In this document: positions 51,081 to 59,091 of the stretch, piece by piece
Numbering within the stretch: position 1 is the stretch's first letter
Layout: every line of letters begins with the position of its first letter
NCBI RefSeq assembly: GCF_004959855.1
Contig: NZ_SPNT01000006.1
Span: 248,001-312,000 of the forward strand
Direction: 5' to 3'
Source of the DNA: Nitratireductor sp. XY-223
GTDB lineage: Bacteria; Pseudomonadota; Alphaproteobacteria; Rhizobiales; Rhizobiaceae
Length of the DNA: 64,000 bases
Position numbers and translations under genes: made by a program
The notes under the pieces: model-generated
What the model saw: the letters and a program-made list of their open reading frames with translations, nothing else
Told to the model about the DNA's origin: nothing
Databases searched by the model: none

Positions 51081-51210
51081 GGCTACAACCGGGCCGGCAC
51101 ACCAGATTGTGAAGACGTATGAATTGTGCATCCGGCTCGGCGGATTATGATCTGCGGCCGAACGGACCGTGCAGCGGGGAACCTGCCTGAGCCGTTGCGG
51201 AGGACGAGAA

Positions 51211-52182
51211 TTGGCGCATATCATTCATCGAAAAGACTGGGCAATCAGCGAAAGCCTTGCCACGCCCGAAGAGGTGTTTTTAAGCCGGCGGCAGCTCGTC
51301 AAGGGCTTCGGCATGGCCGGCCTCGGACTTGCGGCGGCAGCGGCGCTGCGGCCCGGCCGGGGTTTGGCGGCGGCGGATCCGACCGCTAATCTTTATCCGG
51401 CCGAACGCAACGAGGCCTACACGATCGACCGGGAACTGACGCCGGAAGACGTCAATTCCATGTACAACAATTTTTACGAATTCGGATCGCACAAGCAGAT
51501 CTGGAGGGCCGCCCAGGCGCTGAAAACCAGCCCGTGGGACATGGAAATCGACGGGCTTGTCGAGCAACCGATGACCATCGGCTTCGAGGACCTGGTGCGC
51601 AAGATACCGCTCGAGGAAAGGCTGTACCGGCACCGCTGCGTCGAGGCGTGGTCGATGACAGTGCCGTGGACCGGATTTGCGCTGGCCGACCTCGTTGCGC
51701 TCGCCAAACCCCTGTCGTCGGCCAAATATGTGCGGTTCGAGACTTTCCTCGATCCGGGCGTCGCGACCGGCCAGAAACAGCGCTGGTATCCGTGGCCCTA
51801 TGTCGAGGGCGTGACGATCGAGGAAGCGGGCAACGACCTGGCGTTCCTGGTAACCGGTGCATACGGCAAGCCGCTGGCCAAACAGTTCGGCGCGCCGATC
51901 CGTCTCGCGCTGCCTTGGAAATACGGTTTCAAGTCGATCAAATCCATCAAACGCATCACCTTCACCGACACACGCCCGGTCAGTTTCTGGGAAGAAGTCG
52001 GACCCGCGGAGTACGGGTTCTGGGCGAATGTCAATCCAGGTGTGCCGCACCCGCGCTGGAGCCAGAAGCAGGAGCGCGTCCTGCACACGGGGCTTTATGT
52101 CCAGACGCAGATGTTCAACGGCTACGGCGACCAGGTCGCGCATCTTTATAAGGACCTGAAGGGCGAGAAGCTCTACATGTAA
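51211..52182 (+). CDS. msrP: Protein-methionine-sulfoxide reductase catalytic subunit MsrP
   Basis: 323 residues from a TTG at 51211, placed 7 nt after GGAGG; this yields the rhizobial opening MAHIIHRKDWAISESLATPEEVFLSRRQLVKGFGMAGLGL with a twin-arginine-type signal (SRRQLVKGFG). The molybdopterin Cys lies in YRHRCVEAWSMTVPWTGFALADLV. LPWKYGFKSIKSIKRITF and QMFNGYGDQVAHLYKDLKG are conserved. It repairs oxidised periplasmic Met residues. Its usual heme partner gene msrQ is not next to it in this window. Confidence 0.95.
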   Translation: MAHIIHRKDWAISESLATPEEVFLSRRQLVKGFGMAGLGLAAAAALRPGRGLAAADPTANLYPAERNEAYTIDRELTPEDVNSMYNNFYEFGSHKQIWRAAQALKTSPWDMEIDGLVEQPMTIGFEDLVRKIPLEERLYRHRCVEAWSMTVPWTGFALADLVALAKPLSSAKYVRFETFLDPGVATGQKQRWYPWPYVEGVTIEEAGNDLAFLVTGAYGKPLAKQFGAPIRLALPWKYGFKSIKSIKRITFTDTRPVSFWEEVGPAEYGFWANVNPGVPHPRWSQKQERVLHTGLYVQTQMFNGYGDQVAHLYKDLKGEKLYM

Positions 52183-52216
52183 AAAAAACGGGCCTCGAGA
52201 TTGCTCTCAGGCCCGT
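52181..52216 (-). terminator. Terminator of the candidate sRNA
   Basis: On the minus strand ACGGGCCT pairs with AGGCCCGT, extended inside by GAGA/TCTC, and is followed by TTTTTTTT (52188-52181). The U-tract is in the correct place only for minus-strand transcription. Confidence 0.9.
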
Positions 52217-52311
52217 AGAATCGGAAGGTTTAAAAACGAAACCTCCAGAGGGGAACACAGCCGGCGAAGATGGTACTGGGAGGAATAGTCCATCCGTGCT
52301 CGCCGGCTCCT
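52181..52311 (-). ncRNA. Candidate small RNA with anti-Shine-Dalgarno loop
   Basis: Between convergent msrP and the cyclase gene, the minus strand carries a complete transcription unit. A promoter at 52316-52344 is followed by three predicted hairpins. Hairpin 1 has a perfect 9-bp stem (52300-52308 with 52259-52267) and an inner stem (ATGGACT with AGTACCAT) that displays the loop ATTCCTCCC, an anti-ribosome-binding-site sequence. Hairpin 2 pairs GGAGGTTT with AAACCTTCC. Hairpin 3 is a terminator with eight U. The size is about 130 nt. This is the layout of rhizobial trans-acting sRNAs, but I cannot match it to a named family. A 28-codon ORF (ATG 52293) overlaps but has a poorly placed ribosome binding site. 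Confidence 0.72.
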
Positions 52312-52315
52312 GCTG

Positions 52316-52344
52316 ATATGTTTACTTAACGTGCGAATTGCAAG
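52316..52344 (-). promoter_or_regulatory. Promoter of the candidate sRNA
   Basis: Minus-strand CTTGCA (52344-52339) and ACATAT (52321-52316) are separated by 17 nt, close to the alphaproteobacterial housekeeping sigma pattern CTTGAC-N17-CTATAT. Predicted start near 52309-52311. Confidence 0.6.
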
Positions 52345-52441
52345 GCAGAGCTGTGCATGGCAGCTATGCAATTTCTGCAAGGCTGCGCAAACGCCCGGAT
52401 TCAAGGCCTTTCACGGATGAGGGCGCGTGGTTTGAATTTTC

Positions 52442-53836
52442 CTAAGCAAGCGTCCAGACCGTGATATTCCGATCCAGACCGCGGATTTCCACGTCGTTGT
52501 GGGGCACCAGGCCGGACACCGCCTGATCTTCGCCGTCGACCTCGCTTCGCACGCGTTCGAGCAGTTCGTCGGTGGCGGCGAGCCTGACCGACAGTCCGCG
52601 CGTCAGCGCCTCGACGCGGCTGGCCACGTTGACCGTGTTCCCAATCACGGCGAATTCGAGGCGGTTCGCGCCGATGTCCCCGAGAACCGCCGGTCCGTAA
52701 TGGAGCCCGAAGCTGGCCCGGATCGGCTGCTCGCCGGCGTTCTCGCGCGCCTTGTTCCATTCGGCAACCGAGGCGATCATGGCGCGCGCGCAGCGCAGCG
52801 CGTTGAACGCGTCCCGGTCGCTTGCAAAGGGCGTTCCGAATGTCGCCATCAGCCCGTCGCCGAGATATTTGTCGAGTGTGCCGTTGTGGCGGAACACCTC
52901 CTGCTCCATGCGCTGGTGGAACTGGCGCAGGGTCACGATGACTTCCTCGGAACTCCTGTCGGCGGCATAGGTCGTGAAGCCGACGATGTCGACGAAGAGG
53001 ACGGCCACGTCCTGCGTTCGGATCTGTTTGAGCGGTTCGTCGTTGTTTGACAGTTCCTCGACCACATTGGGCGAGAAATAGCGGGCCAGATTGGCCCGCT
53101 CGCGCTCGAGTGCCGCGTGGCCCATCAAAAGGTCCCCGTAACGGCGCACGACAAGGGACAAGGTGATCGCGACGATCATGAACACGACGACTTCCTGAAG
53201 CCTGATATAGGCCAGAAAGTTGTTCGGGTTGAGGAACGACGCCAGTTCGAGGTCCGGCTGAAATGCCGCGATGGCCGCTTCTGTCAGGGCAATGTTATCG
53301 CTTGAGACGAACCAGGCGATTGCGAACGCAAGAAGCCACAGAGCCACGGTCAGGGTCCCCATCCAGCGCACGGTCCGCCAGGAATAGGCGAGCGCTCCGC
53401 CCGCGAGCAGGACATAAAAATACAGAAATCCCTCGAAGCGATACTGCATTGCCAGCGGCCATTCGTTGTCGGAAAACGGATTCGGTACGACAAACACAAT
53501 CGTCATCAAGGCCAGGTCGCAGAAAATCAGAAGCAGTTCCGCGCCCGAACGGCCGACCCGGGCAACGCGAAGGTGCACCCACCCGATCAGGCTGAAGACG
53601 ACCAGGAAGGCGCCGTAGTACAAAACCTCAAGATCGAAATTGATGAAGGGAAGCATGATGGCGATCGCCGCCATGGCGATCCAACGCGCCCTGACGGCGA
53701 GCTCGACGCCCTCGCGCTTGTGACGCTCAAGCGCGGCTTCGGCGAATTTGTTGGCGGCGTCATTTGTGTCCGGTGTCTCGTCCGTCGACCCGGATGCCGT
53801 CCCGCCGGGGACAGGTGCTGCGAGGCTGTTTGTCAA
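52442..53836 (-). CDS. Membrane-bound class III adenylate/guanylate cyclase
   Basis: 464 residues from a TTG at 53836, chosen because GGAG lies 7 nt upstream and no ATG/GTG fits; the open frame further upstream is antisense to the btuC-like gene. Residues about 45-235 hold six membrane helices. The catalytic domain (about 270-460) has VAVLFVDIVGFTTYAADRSSEEVI (metal Asp), LDKYLGDGLMATFGTPFAS (Lys for the base, second Asp) and ANRLEFAVIGNTVNVASRVEAL, where the usual GDTVN reads GNTVN. The Lys favours ATP, so cAMP is the likely product. It lies after the B12 uptake operon. Confidence 0.88.
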   Translation of the reverse strand: MTNSLAAPVPGGTASGSTDETPDTNDAANKFAEAALERHKREGVELAVRARWIAMAAIAIMLPFINFDLEVLYYGAFLVVFSLIGWVHLRVARVGRSGAELLLIFCDLALMTIVFVVPNPFSDNEWPLAMQYRFEGFLYFYVLLAGGALAYSWRTVRWMGTLTVALWLLAFAIAWFVSSDNIALTEAAIAAFQPDLELASFLNPNNFLAYIRLQEVVVFMIVAITLSLVVRRYGDLLMGHAALERERANLARYFSPNVVEELSNNDEPLKQIRTQDVAVLFVDIVGFTTYAADRSSEEVIVTLRQFHQRMEQEVFRHNGTLDKYLGDGLMATFGTPFASDRDAFNALRCARAMIASVAEWNKARENAGEQPIRASFGLHYGPAVLGDIGANRLEFAVIGNTVNVASRVEALTRGLSVRLAATDELLERVRSEVDGEDQAVSGLVPHNDVEIRGLDRNITVWTLA

Positions 53837-53876
53837 TATCAGACTCCATGGAAAACGGAACTGATTTCGAAGATAA

Positions 53877-53913
53877 CCGCGCCGCGACGCTATAGGAACC
53901 GGGCGCGGCGCGG
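53877..53913 (-). terminator. GC-rich hairpin after btuC
   Basis: CCGCGCCGCG and CGCGGCGCGG are perfect 10-bp complements with a 17-nt loop, 22 bp past the btuC stop codon. On the minus strand it is followed by TTATCTTCG, a weak U-tract. It may end the B12 operon before the cyclase gene. Confidence 0.5.
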
Positions 53914-53934
53914 CCCATGTGAGCAAGCCCGCGT

Positions 53935-54942
53935 CTAACGCGGCCTTTCCGTCATCAGCAAGGCGAACACGAACACAGCACCCAGCGATGTGGTGATGAC
54001 GCCGACCGGCAGTTCCTGAGGGGCGAGCAGCACCCGCGCCAGCAGATCGGAGGCGGTCAGAAGCGCGCCGCCGATAATGGCCGCGACAACCGACAGGCGC
54101 AGGTGCAGTGCACCGACCAGCGCCCTTGCAATATGCGGCACCATCAGGCCGATAAAGCCGATCACACCGGAAACGGAAACGAAAATGGCGGTTGCGAAGG
54201 CGGCGGCAATGAACGCATTGCGCCGCAATGCGGAAACCGGGACGCCAAGGCTGTTGGCGGTCGCGTCGCCGGCCAGAAGCGCATCGAGTTTTCGATGCGA
54301 CAAAATGGTGAATGCGACGATTGCCGCGGCGCCCAGAAGCACAAGGGGCAGGGTGCTCCAGCGCGCCAGGCCGAGACCGCCCAGCATCCAGAATATGACC
54401 GAATGGGCGGCCCGCTGATCTCCCGAGAAAACAAGAAAATTCGTCAGCGCCGAGAACAGGAACGAAACGGCAAGCCCGGCCAGGATGAGCTTTTCCGGCG
54501 CCGATGTGCGCAGGCGCGCGACAAGTCCGAGCACAATGGCCGTCGCCAGCATGCCGCCGCTGAAGGCCGCAAGCGGCAATGTCCAAAAGCCGAGCACGTC
54601 GCCGGTAACGGTTATGACGAAGACGGCGCCGGTCGCGGCGCCCGAGGAAAGGCCGAACAGAAACGGGTCGGCCAGGTCATTGCGCGTTGCGGTTTGCAAA
54701 ACGACCCCGACGACGCCGAGCCCGGCACCGATCAAAAGCGAAAACAGCGCGCGCGGCAGCCGCAAGTCGAAGACAATGCGATCCATCGCGGACGGTTCGC
54801 CGTCAAGCAGGCCGAAGCCGCGAAGGATCGAGCGCGAGACTTCCGGTAAGGAGATGTCGGCCGAACCGTAGGCGACAGACAAAAGAAGCAGGGCGATCTG
54901 TACGATCGCCCCGATCAGAATGCAGAGCGCGAAGCGGTTCAC
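53935..54942 (-). CDS. btuC: BtuC-type permease of a cobalamin ABC importer
   Basis: 335 residues from a GTG at 54942, one base after the btuF stop codon. FecCD-family permease with about ten helices. Hallmarks: RLPRALFSLLIGAGLGVVGVVLQTATRNDLADPFLFGLSSGAATGAVF, AGLAVSFLFSALTNFLVF and GVIGFIGLMVPHIARALVG with the coupling-helix segment. FecCD permeases carry siderophores, heme or B12; the riboswitch at the head of the operon points to cobalamin (or a precursor). Confidence 0.88.
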   Translation of the reverse strand: MNRFALCILIGAIVQIALLLLSVAYGSADISLPEVSRSILRGFGLLDGEPSAMDRIVFDLRLPRALFSLLIGAGLGVVGVVLQTATRNDLADPFLFGLSSGAATGAVFVITVTGDVLGFWTLPLAAFSGGMLATAIVLGLVARLRTSAPEKLILAGLAVSFLFSALTNFLVFSGDQRAAHSVIFWMLGGLGLARWSTLPLVLLGAAAIVAFTILSHRKLDALLAGDATANSLGVPVSALRRNAFIAAAFATAIFVSVSGVIGFIGLMVPHIARALVGALHLRLSVVAAIIGGALLTASDLLARVLLAPQELPVGVITTSLGAVFVFALLMTERPR

Positions 54943-54943
54943 C

Positions 54944-55891
54944 TCAGAACCGCTCGGGATGCAGGGCTTCGGCTATCTTGCGTATTGCGGCGATGTTTGC
55001 CGGTCCCGGGGTCAGTTCCTCGTAGCGCAGCCCGATCCAGCGGCCGTTCTTGACCGCTTGCGTCTGAGACATGACCGGATGGGCCTGGAGAAAGGCGAAG
55101 GTATCGGCCGCGCCGTTGCCGGTCTGATAGTCCAGCAGGATCAGGAATTCGGGATCGGCCGCCGCAACGGCCTCCCACGACGAGCGGCCCCAGCTCGTGT
55201 CCATGTCGTGGGTGACGTTTTTGCCGCCGGCCGCCGCGATCATCGCATCGGGGATGGCAAAGCGGCCGGCCGTGAACGGCGCGTCCGCCGGACCGTCGAG
55301 AAGAAATACGCGCTTGCCGCCGGCTTTGCCGACCGTGGTCTTTATGTCGGAAAGCTCCTGCCGCCAATCAGATACCAGCTTCTTCGCCCGATCTTCGACA
55401 TGCATGATGCGTCCGAGGCGCAACATGTCCCCGAAAAGGAGTTCCATGCTGGCTTCCGGGCGGTTCTTGTCGAGGTGGACGCAGCTCTCGGTCAGCACCA
55501 GCGTCTTGATCCCGAAAGGCGCCAGCGTGTCGGGCGTCACCTCGCCGCCCGGTTTCATGCCGTAATACCAGCCGGCGAAGAACAGGTCGGGATCGGCCGA
55601 GACAAGATTCTCCACCGTCGGATACTTCGGAGCGAGCTCCGGAATGTCGCCGCGCAGGTCGTCAAAATCCGGGCTCGTCTTGTACCAGCCGGTAATGCCC
55701 GTCAGGCCGACGATACGATCCTGCAGCCCGAGCGCAAAGGCCATGTCGGTCATGTTCATATCGTGCACGACGATCCTCTCGGGTGTCGTCTCGAAAGTGA
55801 GCGAAGCACCGCAGTTCTCGACGGTGACCGGATCTGCCATCGCGGGCAGGGCGATGCACAGCGCGGCACACGAAAGAATGACTGACTTCAT
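54944..55891 (-). CDS. btuF: BtuF-type cobalamin-binding periplasmic protein
   Basis: 315 residues. Signal peptide MKSVILSCAALCIALPAMA. A type III (TroA-like) binding fold: PERIVVHDMNMTDMAFALGLQDRIVGLTGI, YPTVENLVSADPDLFFAGW, KTLVLTESCV and AAADPEFLILLDYQTG. AGAGGAAAAC lies before the ATG at 55891. Second gene of the riboswitch operon, 16 bp after btuD. Iron-siderophore or heme binding would be the alternative if the riboswitch did not control it. Confidence 0.87.
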   Translation of the reverse strand: MKSVILSCAALCIALPAMADPVTVENCGASLTFETTPERIVVHDMNMTDMAFALGLQDRIVGLTGITGWYKTSPDFDDLRGDIPELAPKYPTVENLVSADPDLFFAGWYYGMKPGGEVTPDTLAPFGIKTLVLTESCVHLDKNRPEASMELLFGDMLRLGRIMHVEDRAKKLVSDWRQELSDIKTTVGKAGGKRVFLLDGPADAPFTAGRFAIPDAMIAAAGGKNVTHDMDTSWGRSSWEAVAAADPEFLILLDYQTGNGAADTFAFLQAHPVMSQTQAVKNGRWIGLRYEELTPGPANIAAIRKIAEALHPERF

Positions 55892-55907
55892 ATAGTTTTC
55901 CTCTGGT

Positions 55908-56705
55908 TCAGTGGTTTGCGTTTCGAGAGATCGGGATATCGACGACCGACAATGTCCGTGCCTCGCTCGGATGCCGCACGCGGATGAGGTCCACCGCGAA
56001 CACGTCCCGTATCAGGGACGGCGTCAGCACGTCCTGCGCCGGTCCGAATGCCCGCAAACGGGCCTGTTCGAGGACGGCAACCTGGGTGGCGAATTCCGGA
56101 ATCAGGGCGATCTCGTGGACGATCAGCACGACCGTGATGCCGAGCCCCACGATCAGCGACAGGATTTTGCCCTTGGCATCGGGATCGAGGTGGTTGGTGG
56201 GTTCATCCAGGAACAGCAGCTTGGGATCTTGCGCGATCGCACGCGCAATATGGGCCCTTTGCCTTTCGCCGCCCGAAAGACGGCCGAGCGGTGCGTCCCG
56301 GAACCGCTCAAGTTGCGTCGCCTGCAGGGCTTTCGTTACGGCGGCGCGGTGGTCCTTTTCCGGCAGTTCGCTGCGCAGGGGCAGGCGGCCCAGCGCCACA
56401 TAGTCTTCGAGCCGCAGCCTGCCGTCGGGACTTTCGAGCTGACCGACGAACGCAATGTCTTTGGCGCGTTCGCGCGGCCGCATCTTCGACAGATCGCTGC
56501 CGTTGAGCCGAACCTGACCGGGCGCGAGTTCACCAAGGCCCGAGATCAGCTGCAGCAGCGTGGATTTGCCGGCGCCGTTCGGGCCGGCGATCGCCAGGAT
56601 GCTTCCGCGCGGCACGGCGAAGGAAACATCGTCGATCAGCAGGTCGCCATTGCGTGCGCTGTGGCAAAGGTTCGACACCTCCAGCACGGGAACCGCGGCA
56701 TGCAT
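55908..56705 (-). CDS. btuD: BtuD-type ATPase of a cobalamin ABC importer
   Basis: 265 residues. Motifs: Walker A AGPNGAGKSTLLQLISG, Q-loop AFVGQLESPDGRLRLEDYVALGR, signature LSGGERQRAHIARAIA, Walker B LLFLDEPTNHLD and switch VLIVHE. The C-terminal part (FGPAQDVLTPSLIRDVFAVDLIRV) is typical of FecE/BtuD importers. The ATG at 56705 has no ribosome binding site of its own but overlaps the TGA of an upstream 29-residue ORF (TGATG), so it is probably translated by coupling. Confidence 0.9.
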   Translation of the reverse strand: MHAAVPVLEVSNLCHSARNGDLLIDDVSFAVPRGSILAIAGPNGAGKSTLLQLISGLGELAPGQVRLNGSDLSKMRPRERAKDIAFVGQLESPDGRLRLEDYVALGRLPLRSELPEKDHRAAVTKALQATQLERFRDAPLGRLSGGERQRAHIARAIAQDPKLLFLDEPTNHLDPDAKGKILSLIVGLGITVVLIVHEIALIPEFATQVAVLEQARLRAFGPAQDVLTPSLIRDVFAVDLIRVRHPSEARTLSVVDIPISRNANH

Positions 56706-57201: not shown

Positions 57202-58098
57202 TCAGTACTTCCAGTTGCGCGCCTTGGAGATAAGGAAATCGCGGAAGGCCCTGAGCTTGGCCGAGCCGCGCAGCTCCTCCGGGTAGCAGAAGAACCCGGA
57301 GAAGGAGGGCACGTCCGAATCAATGTCGAGCTGCACAAGGCCGGCATCGTGGCCGACCATGTAGTCGGGCAGCATGGCAATGCCGATGCCGAGCTGTGCC
57401 GCCCGCTTGATCGACGGCATGTTGTTGATCTGCAGATGCGGCGATCGCGGATTGCTCGCCGGCCGGCCGGCCACTTCCAGCCAGTTGACGTCGAGCAGGT
57501 AATTCGGCGCGGGCTCGCCGAAGGTGATGATGCGGTGGGTGTCGAAGTCGCTCACGTGCTCGGGCTTGCCATAGCGGTTGAGATAGGCGGGCGATGCGTA
57601 GACATGCATGTGCACGGTGAACAGCTTGCGCTGGATGAGGTCCGGCTGCTGCGGCTGGCGCAGGCGGATGGCGCAGTCGGCGTGCCGCATGCTGACATCG
57701 AGTTCCTCGTTGTCGAGAAGCAGCTGCACCTCGATATCCGGGTACAGCTCCATGAACTCCTGCATGCGGTCGGTCAGCCAGCCGGAGCCGAGACCCACTG
57801 TCGTCGTGACCCGCAACTTGCCACTTGGATTTTCAGTCGTTTCGGAGAGCCGCACGCGCACGGCTTCGAGCTTGAGCAGCACGTCATGCGCGGTGCGGTA
57901 AAGCAGTTCGCCCTGTTCAGTGAGGATCAGGCCGCGGGCGTGACGGTGGAAAAGCGGAACGCCGATATCCTGCTCCAGCGCGCTGACCTGGCGGGAGATC
58001 GCGGACTGGGACAGATGCAGCTTTTCGGCCGCGTGCGTAAAGGACCCGGCCTCGGCGGCGGCGTGAAAAATGCGCAGTTTATCCCAATCGAGCGGCAT
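57202..58098 (-). CDS. lsrB: LysR-type regulator, LsrB-like
   Basis: 298 residues. HTH: LDWDKLRIFHAAAEAGSFTHAAEKLHLSQSAISRQVSALEQDIGVPLFHRHARGLILTEQGELL. The effector domain contains TVGLGSGWLTDRMQEFMELYPDIEVQLLLDNEELDVSMRHADCAIRLRQP and cysteines in HADCAIRL and GFFCYPEE that could sense redox state. In Sinorhizobium, lsrB lies beside trxB and lrp, controls oxidative-stress and lipopolysaccharide genes, and is needed in symbiosis; the same order here supports the name. It follows trxB with a 27-bp gap. Confidence 0.85.
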   Translation of the reverse strand: MPLDWDKLRIFHAAAEAGSFTHAAEKLHLSQSAISRQVSALEQDIGVPLFHRHARGLILTEQGELLYRTAHDVLLKLEAVRVRLSETTENPSGKLRVTTTVGLGSGWLTDRMQEFMELYPDIEVQLLLDNEELDVSMRHADCAIRLRQPQQPDLIQRKLFTVHMHVYASPAYLNRYGKPEHVSDFDTHRIITFGEPAPNYLLDVNWLEVAGRPASNPRSPHLQINNMPSIKRAAQLGIGIAMLPDYMVGHDAGLVQLDIDSDVPSFSGFFCYPEELRGSAKLRAFRDFLISKARNWKY

Positions 58099-58125
58099 GT
58101 CGGTGTTCCCCTCGCAACGGTCCCG

Positions 58126-59091
58126 TTATTCCGCGGCGTCGGCCATCGGTTCAAGTTCCGCCAGGAACTTCTCGGCCTCGAGCGCCGCCATGCATCCCAT
58201 TCCGGCGGCGGTCACCGCCTGGCGGTAGATGTCGTCGGTGACGTCGCCGGCGGCGTATACGCCATCGACATCCGTCGCCGTCGAATCGGACGCCGTCCAC
58301 AGATAGCCGTTGGACTTCTGCTTGAGCTTGCCTTCAAACAGGGAAACGGACGGCGCGTGTCCGATTGCTATGAACACGCCGTCGGTCGCGTGTTCGGTGA
58401 TCTCGCCGGTCTTGACGTTCTTGAGCCGCACCCCGGTCACCGAAGGCGGCGTCGTGGTCTCGCCGGTGATTTCCTCGAGCTGGCTGTCCCAGACGATGTC
58501 GATGTTTTCCTTGGCCATCAGCCGTTTCTGCAGGATCTTCTCGGCCCGCAATTCGTCGCGGCGGTGCACCAGCGTGACCCGTTCGGCAAGGTTGGACAGG
58601 TACAGCGCTTCCTCGACGGCGGTGTTTCCGCCGCCGATGACCACAACCTTCTTGTTGCGATAGAAGAAGCCGTCGCAGGTGGCGCAGGCCGAGACACCGA
58701 AGCCCATGAAGGTCTGCTCCGATTCGATGCCCAGCCACTTGGCCTGTGCGCCGGTGGCGATGATTAAAGAATCACAGGTGTATTCCTGGCCTGAATCGGT
58801 CTTGATATGGAACGGGCGAACGTCGAGATTCACCTCCGTCACCAGATCGTTGACGATATCGGCGCCGACATTTTCCGCCTGTTTGAGCATCTGCTCCATC
58901 ATCCACGGACCCTGCACGGTCTCGGCGTAGCCCGGATAGTTCTCGACATCCGTCGTGATCGTGAGCTGGCCGCCCTGTTCCAGACCGGCGATCAGCACCG
59001 GTTCGAGCATGGCGCGCGCCGCGTAGATGGCCGCTGTGTATCCGGCAGGTCCCGAGCCGATGATCAGGACACGTGCATGGCGAATCGTCAT
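58126..59091 (-). CDS. trxB: Thioredoxin-disulfide reductase
   Basis: 321 residues. FAD site LIIGSGPAGYTAAIYAARA, redox-active CATCDGFF, NADPH-binding VVVIGGGNTAVEEALYLSNLA, and C-terminal GVYAAGDVTDDIYRQAVTAAGMGCMAALEAEKFL. It reduces thioredoxin with NADPH. It is first in a trxB-lsrB pair and divergent from lrp across 272 bp. Confidence 0.97.
   Translation of the reverse strand: MTIRHARVLIIGSGPAGYTAAIYAARAMLEPVLIAGLEQGGQLTITTDVENYPGYAETVQGPWMMEQMLKQAENVGADIVNDLVTEVNLDVRPFHIKTDSGQEYTCDSLIIATGAQAKWLGIESEQTFMGFGVSACATCDGFFYRNKKVVVIGGGNTAVEEALYLSNLAERVTLVHRRDELRAEKILQKRLMAKENIDIVWDSQLEEITGETTTPPSVTGVRLKNVKTGEITEHATDGVFIAIGHAPSVSLFEGKLKQKSNGYLWTASDSTATDVDGVYAAGDVTDDIYRQAVTAAGMGCMAALEAEKFLAELEPMADAAE

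Follow-up and report, generated by a model that had tools for sequence, protein, structure and literature searches.

A probable single-copy AbcR (ar15) small RNA with a predicted LsrB/VtlR activator box in a Rhizobiaceae bacterium of the genus of Hoeflea poritis

Locus organization, family and fold of the RNA

The window, i.e., the whole 64-kb stretch of DNA that was analyzed, carries on its minus strand the genes trxB and lsrB and, further downstream, a small RNA (sRNA) gene facing an msrP-like gene (Table 1). A covariance-model search identified the sRNA as a match to Rfam family RF02345 (ar15) at positions 52308-52184 of the minus strand, covering the whole model (1-112 of 112) with 63.1 bits for a curated cut-off of 40 bits. 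With E = 1.6e-10 in 64 kb, a chance match is excluded. The ar15 family corresponds to AbcR1/AbcR2 (PMC3712013). The original prediction had described the RNA as uncatalogued and had itself proposed an Rfam search, which, by returning this family above its cut-off, proved the description wrong. It is well supported that the locus encodes a member of the already known AbcR family, and as an sRNA it is ordinary. Two other identities were rejected, namely BjrC68 (RF02353), which at 23.3 bits stayed under its cut-off of 39 and matched the terminator region only, and an lncRNA family whose match was below threshold. At this RNA, no ar14 (RF02344) match was found among the matches listed up to E 5, a listing from which a single lower ar15-clan match is missing.

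Table 1. Features of the abcR region, with positions counted from the first letter of the window.
Feature	Position	Strand	Remarks
msrP-like molybdopterin oxidoreductase	51169..52182	+	PF00174; convergent with the sRNA
AbcR sRNA (ar15)	52181..52308	-	128 nt; +1 placed at 52308 from box spacing and Rfam model start
Intrinsic terminator hairpin and U8	52181..52216	-	Sequence, fold, covariation
28-codon ORF, rejected as gene	52207..52293	-	Unconserved in the eight genus copies
Hairpin 2	52221..52249	-	Fold and covariation
aSD2 UUCCCCUC	52248..52255	-	Linker after hairpin 1; extended GUGUUCCCCUC, 52258-52248
aSD1 UUCCUCCC	52278..52285	-	Apical loop of hairpin 1 in the predicted fold
-10 element ACATAT	52316..52321	-	4/6 to CTATAT; 17-nt spacer
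-35 element CTTGCA	52339..52344	-	4/6 to CTTGAC
VtlR/LsrB activator box GCATAGCTGCCAT	52357..52369	-	Predicted site, -61 to -49; exact match to GCAT-N3-TG-N3-T
lsrB/vtlR ortholog, LysR family	57202..58098	-	298 aa; probable activator; 78% identity to a relative's LsrB
lsrB RBS GAGGGGAACAC, possible feedback site	58103..58113	-	Perfect complement of AbcR 52258-52248
trxB	58126..59091	-	Begins the block trxB-lsrB-abcR

Among 61 genomes, the own genome included, RF02345 was matched in 34 at E <= 0.001 and in 26 above the cut-off, with exactly one match in each of the eight genomes of the genus. A single abcR copy was found in the own genome (Rfam ar15, E <= 1), to which a broader model (R3) added only one ar14-type RNA; another model (R1) was discarded for its poor structure, resulting from a misaligned hairpin 1. 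An AbcR2-type sibling, i.e., a second, RpoH1-driven copy without LsrB box, was not found, the sole copy detected being one with the box.

The first base of the activator box, when set at -61, places +1 at 52308, the base where the Rfam match begins, and the length that follows from this probable start agrees with the approximately 130 nt first proposed. Hairpin 1 combines a perfect 9-bp stem (AGCCGGCGA/TCGCCGGCT, minus strand) with an inner stem and exposes the apical loop AUUCCUCCC, which includes the anti-Shine-Dalgarno motif aSD1. The UCCUCCC of this motif is invariant in all eight genus copies. The second motif, aSD2, is present in 44 of 48 copies, and its last two bases are weakly paired within hairpin 2 in the predicted fold. 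The terminator, unlisted by an E. coli-type scan, consists of a GC-rich stem followed by eight T (52188-52181, minus strand). The three hairpins, the loop and the terminator with eight U of the original prediction were correct in sequence and fold. As far as sequence can tell, its picture of a free-standing, trans-acting RNA like those of rhizobia, with a loop complementary to the Shine-Dalgarno sequence, is borne out.

The 133 nt folded reached a minimum free energy of -56.7 kcal/mol (z = -5.3), none of 200 dinucleotide shuffles being equally stable. When the window fold was laid on the eight genus copies, 93.7% of the cells were paired and two-sided changes occurred at 11 of 40 pairs. The stems, whose conservation had been named early on as a point to check, covary: the covariation score was 0.289 vs 0.163 ± 0.015 in shuffles, of which 0/500 reached it, and slid structures scored 0.045-0.112, a comparison that favors the fold since it was derived from one of the eight aligned sequences. 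The number of further pair types showed no excess (18 vs 21.4 in shuffles).

These alignments also bear on the idea that the RNA has a dual function and additionally encodes a peptide of 28 codons, which the original prediction had raised. Such an ATG-initiated ORF does exist (52293-52207), and its ATG is kept in six of the eight genus copies. However, the start is replaced by ACG in the other two (G002, G005), the frame in the remaining six extends over 28, 20, 20 and 32 codons or stays open (two copies), the 15 nt preceding it contain no SD-like run, and the sequence changes follow the stems. In the comparison of relatives first suggested to weigh loop against codons, the UCCUCCC of the loop is invariant and the frame is not conserved. 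Judged by its sequence, the ORF is unlikely to encode a conserved peptide, and a dual-function RNA is highly improbable. Equally little can be said for denying it the status of a separate RNA and assigning the sequence to the convergent msrP transcript, as its 3' end or terminator. The terminator stem does follow the msrP stop immediately, but both the U8 tract and the promoter belong to the minus strand, the whole RNA is covered by the family match, and some relatives with the RNA have no msrP in the fetched stretch (e.g., L031, L056-L058). An independent AbcR RNA is the preferred reading, the msrP explanation being scarcely credible.

Promoter, activator box and lsrB neighborhood

The promoter of the sRNA, CTTGCA-N17-ACATAT (52344-52316, minus strand), agrees at 8 of 12 positions with the alphaproteobacterial consensus CTTGAC-N17-CTATAT (PMC8844928). 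The predicted promoter is of alphaproteobacterial type, but calling it near-consensus, as was done originally, was generous, and an E. coli-type promoter scan yielded nothing at the sRNA locus. The sequence aacatatc of the -10 region is found in 8/8 genus copies. Upstream lies a predicted VtlR/LsrB box matching the published consensus (PMC7486931) and located where the box of AbcR1 has been described, from -61 to -49 (PMC8844928). Its letters are identical, and it starts at -61, in all eight copies of the genus. More widely, a box at -64 to -58 accompanies 25 of 48 copies (23 of 34 genomes), vs 0.04% in mononucleotide shuffles. Among the eight genomes with several copies, four have the box on one copy and two (G036, G021) on two, and no exactly fitting box was found in G016 and G024. 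The box is just beyond the coordinates of the original prediction, which missed it along with aSD2 and the lsrB gene.

The product of lsrB carries the Pfam domains HTH_1 and LysR_substrate and was matched with E 1.2e-166, the next best protein of the own genome reaching E 9.9e-33. LsrB was found in 129 of the 131 family genomes searched. In the window, abcR is 4.9 kb from lsrB on the same strand, and the two genes share contig and strand in 8/8 genus genomes. Their distance is 0.16-0.26 kb in G002, G005 and G006, 4.9 kb in the own genome (G000) and in Hoeflea poritis E7-10 (G007), 8.3-8.4 kb in G003 and G004, and 14.9 kb in G001. In the 31 genomes for which both places are known, the distance from lsrB to an abcR downstream of it and on its strand is at most 1.5 kb in 23 and at most 15 kb in 30. 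On the far side of abcR, msrP is present in all eight genus genomes, directly adjoining in seven and 1.5 kb off in G001. Besides, the own genome has one match to hfq (111.8 bits). A cobalamin riboswitch (57108-56896, minus strand, 113.5 bits) was observed between lsrB and abcR, followed at 52442-56705 on the same strand by an ABC ATPase-like ORF (by motifs) and by Peripla_BP_2, FecCD permease and guanylate-cyclase-domain genes. The FecCD and cyclase genes occupy the same place in Hoeflea poritis.

The window RNA shares with AbcR1 and AbcR2 of Sinorhizobium meliloti, Agrobacterium and Brucella its length, the three hairpins, aSD1 in loop 1 and the terminator, as well as the VtlR/LsrB box at -61 to -49 and an lsrB gene upstream on the same strand. 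Its aSD2 is the same 8-mer as in S. meliloti AbcR1/2 (PMC8844928). Unlike these systems, only one copy was found in the window genome, the B12 riboswitch, transport genes and cyclase gene separate lsrB from abcR, and the neighbor is msrP. In comparison with the Rfam ar15 consensus, the RNA has two extra bases before UUCCCC.

Candidate targets and proposed mode of action

We consider it very likely that, in this Rhizobiaceae member of the Hoeflea poritis genus, the window carries the single AbcR (ar15) sRNA, a positional ortholog of AbcR1 working by the mechanism of its studied relatives. By analogy with these, from which the transcription start, activation by LsrB, the need for Hfq and repression through blocking of ribosome-binding sites are carried over, the LysR-type VtlR/LsrB would bind the box at -61 and drive the sigma-70 promoter. 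The resulting 128-nt RNA, assisted by Hfq, would pair with ribosome-binding sites on mRNAs through aSD1 in loop 1 and aSD2 in the linker. Such pairing may block translation, mainly of the periplasmic binding proteins that serve ABC transporters and, in this genome, TRAP transporters as well. The AbcR family is known to silence nutrient-uptake genes by covering ribosome-binding sites, and in S. meliloti AbcR1 the two motifs aSD1 and aSD2 target independently (PMC8844928); the AbcR motifs M1 CUCCCA and M2 GUUCCC have also been described (PMC5461406).

Starts complementary to aSD1 (GGGAGGAA-N4-11-ATG) occur at 57 places in the own genome vs 6 for the reversed pattern. Periplasmic binding proteins accounted for 11 of the first 30 of these 57 places vs 2 of 30 controls with the SD ACAGGAG (Fisher p 0.010), a comparison flattered by 13 control places that open no 40-codon frame and were counted as misses. 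For two controls (L265, L290) the match lay elsewhere than expected, and one aSD1 protein of 5 aa (L096) was left unscanned and likewise counted as a miss. This control replaced an earlier one that was too rare (4 places). When only proteins with a Pfam hit were considered, binding proteins made up 11/24 in the aSD1 set vs 2/13 in the control (p 0.083). The 11 proteins comprise five DctP (TRAP), two Peripla_BP_4 and one each of NMT1_3, NMT1, Peripla_BP_6 and Bmp. Starts complementary to aSD2 number 16 in the own genome vs 3 for the reversed pattern, and the scan of 10 of these 16 showed no binding protein; the six left aside are frames of <=54 codons.

The aSD1 targets could also be owned or shared by two tandem sRNAs of the ar14 (NfeR1) type on contig C11 of the own genome (L252, 1504-1628 and 1069-1196, both on the minus strand), which scored 120.2 and 93.4 bits for a cut-off of 58.8 and carry CCUCCUCCC. 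NfeR1/ar14 (RF02344) resembles AbcR as an LsrB-activated anti-Shine-Dalgarno sRNA with CCUCCC motifs (PMC10746234). It differs by its three identical aSD motifs (PMC8844928); the window RNA has no ar14 match, and the two ar14 copies are separate in the genome. The main gain from this AbcR ortholog is that a known regulator is now traced to the Hoeflea poritis lineage. It also offers a natural single-copy AbcR system, free of the overlap between AbcR1 and AbcR2 that complicates S. meliloti.

Possible feedback on lsrB and diversity of AbcR-like RNAs

According to the lsrB start, AbcR may in addition silence its own activator, its extended aSD2 pairing with the lsrB ribosome-binding site in a negative feedback loop, a proposal that we put forward tentatively. 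Indeed, the start GAGGGGAACACcgacATG contains an 11-nt perfect complement to AbcR in this genome, and lsrB is one of the 16 genomic places of the form GAGGGGAA-N4-11-ATG. The joint folding of AbcR and lsrB gave a modeled gain of -16.9 kcal/mol. In the other seven genomes of the genus this gain did not go beyond -1.0 to -10.3 kcal/mol, and Hoeflea poritis, the closest relative with an LsrB 98% identical, is without the lsrB site.

The site was then considered across the family. Of the 129 genomes with lsrB, nine that were second of their genus were left off, and the first 100 of the 120 thus kept supplied the lsrB regions. In 17 of these, the own one included, the lsrB start carries the exact 8-mer GAGGGGAA, for 0.03 expected from the remaining sequence, but the other 83 lack it, and these counts ignore kinship, relatives being non-independent samples. 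Elsewhere in the 1.45 Mb (both strands, abcR antisense excluded) the 8-mer occurs 13 times, of which three are before other starts. The usual aSD2 is present in 16 of the 17 genomes with the lsrB site. Duplex energies were compared in 99 genomes, G122 having no assigned lsrB start. In the 82 genomes with the usual aSD2, a class assigned from the pattern near lsrB in 70 and from Rfam matches in 12 (including G019, without exact UUCCCCUC), the mean aSD2 duplex energy was -13.6 at lsrB vs -6.0 at trxB starts (p 5e-15). However, the generic SD of lsrB is also stronger (-8.2 vs -4.9 at trxB), and the mean at lsrB in ten genomes with a changed aSD2 was -11.8, which is no difference (p 0.39). A test of whether the lsrB site follows the aSD2 type came out negative. 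In five genomes without detected AbcR, the mean lsrB energy was -9.4.

A feedback loop between NfeR1 and NtrBC reported for the related sRNA (PMC10746234) makes such loops plausible. Among the matches listed on AbcR, LsrB/VtlR and feedback, and in the parts of PMC8844928, PMC10746234 and PMC12595884 that were covered, an action of AbcR on lsrB was not reported, the S. meliloti target table lying outside this scope. A self-limiting AbcR-LsrB/VtlR loop recurring with gains and losses across Rhizobiaceae is conceivable, though on balance doubtful. LsrB/VtlR regulates oxidative-stress and host-interaction genes (PMC8844928), and if the lsrB site works, it would place this activator under RNA feedback, a testable addition to a well-studied circuit.

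Besides, 11 copies from 10 genomes (L237, L238, L239, L240, L241, L230, L243, L244, L228, L245, L248) form a divergent AbcR class, which keeps aSD1 and has (U)UUCCUCCC in place of UUCCCCUC as aSD2, with an exact VtlR box at -60 to -62 in seven of the 11 copies. Rfam ar15 missed six of these ten genomes at E 0.05 and scored the other four at 24.8-29.9 bits, for the cut-off of 40. In other families of the order, AbcR-like matches of 29.9-34 bits, below the Rfam cut-off, were found at L045, L046 and L030; CCUCCC and UUCCCCUC occur in L045 and L046, the latter also with lsrB, trxB and msrP nearby. An AbcR-like RNA with an altered aSD2 is retained in two small genomes of 1.9 and 1.5 Mb (L222, L242). 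Finally, two contigs of the own genome, C12 and C16 (L287, L291), encode RAMP-superfamily and Cas_GSU0053 proteins, which are signs of CRISPR-Cas systems.
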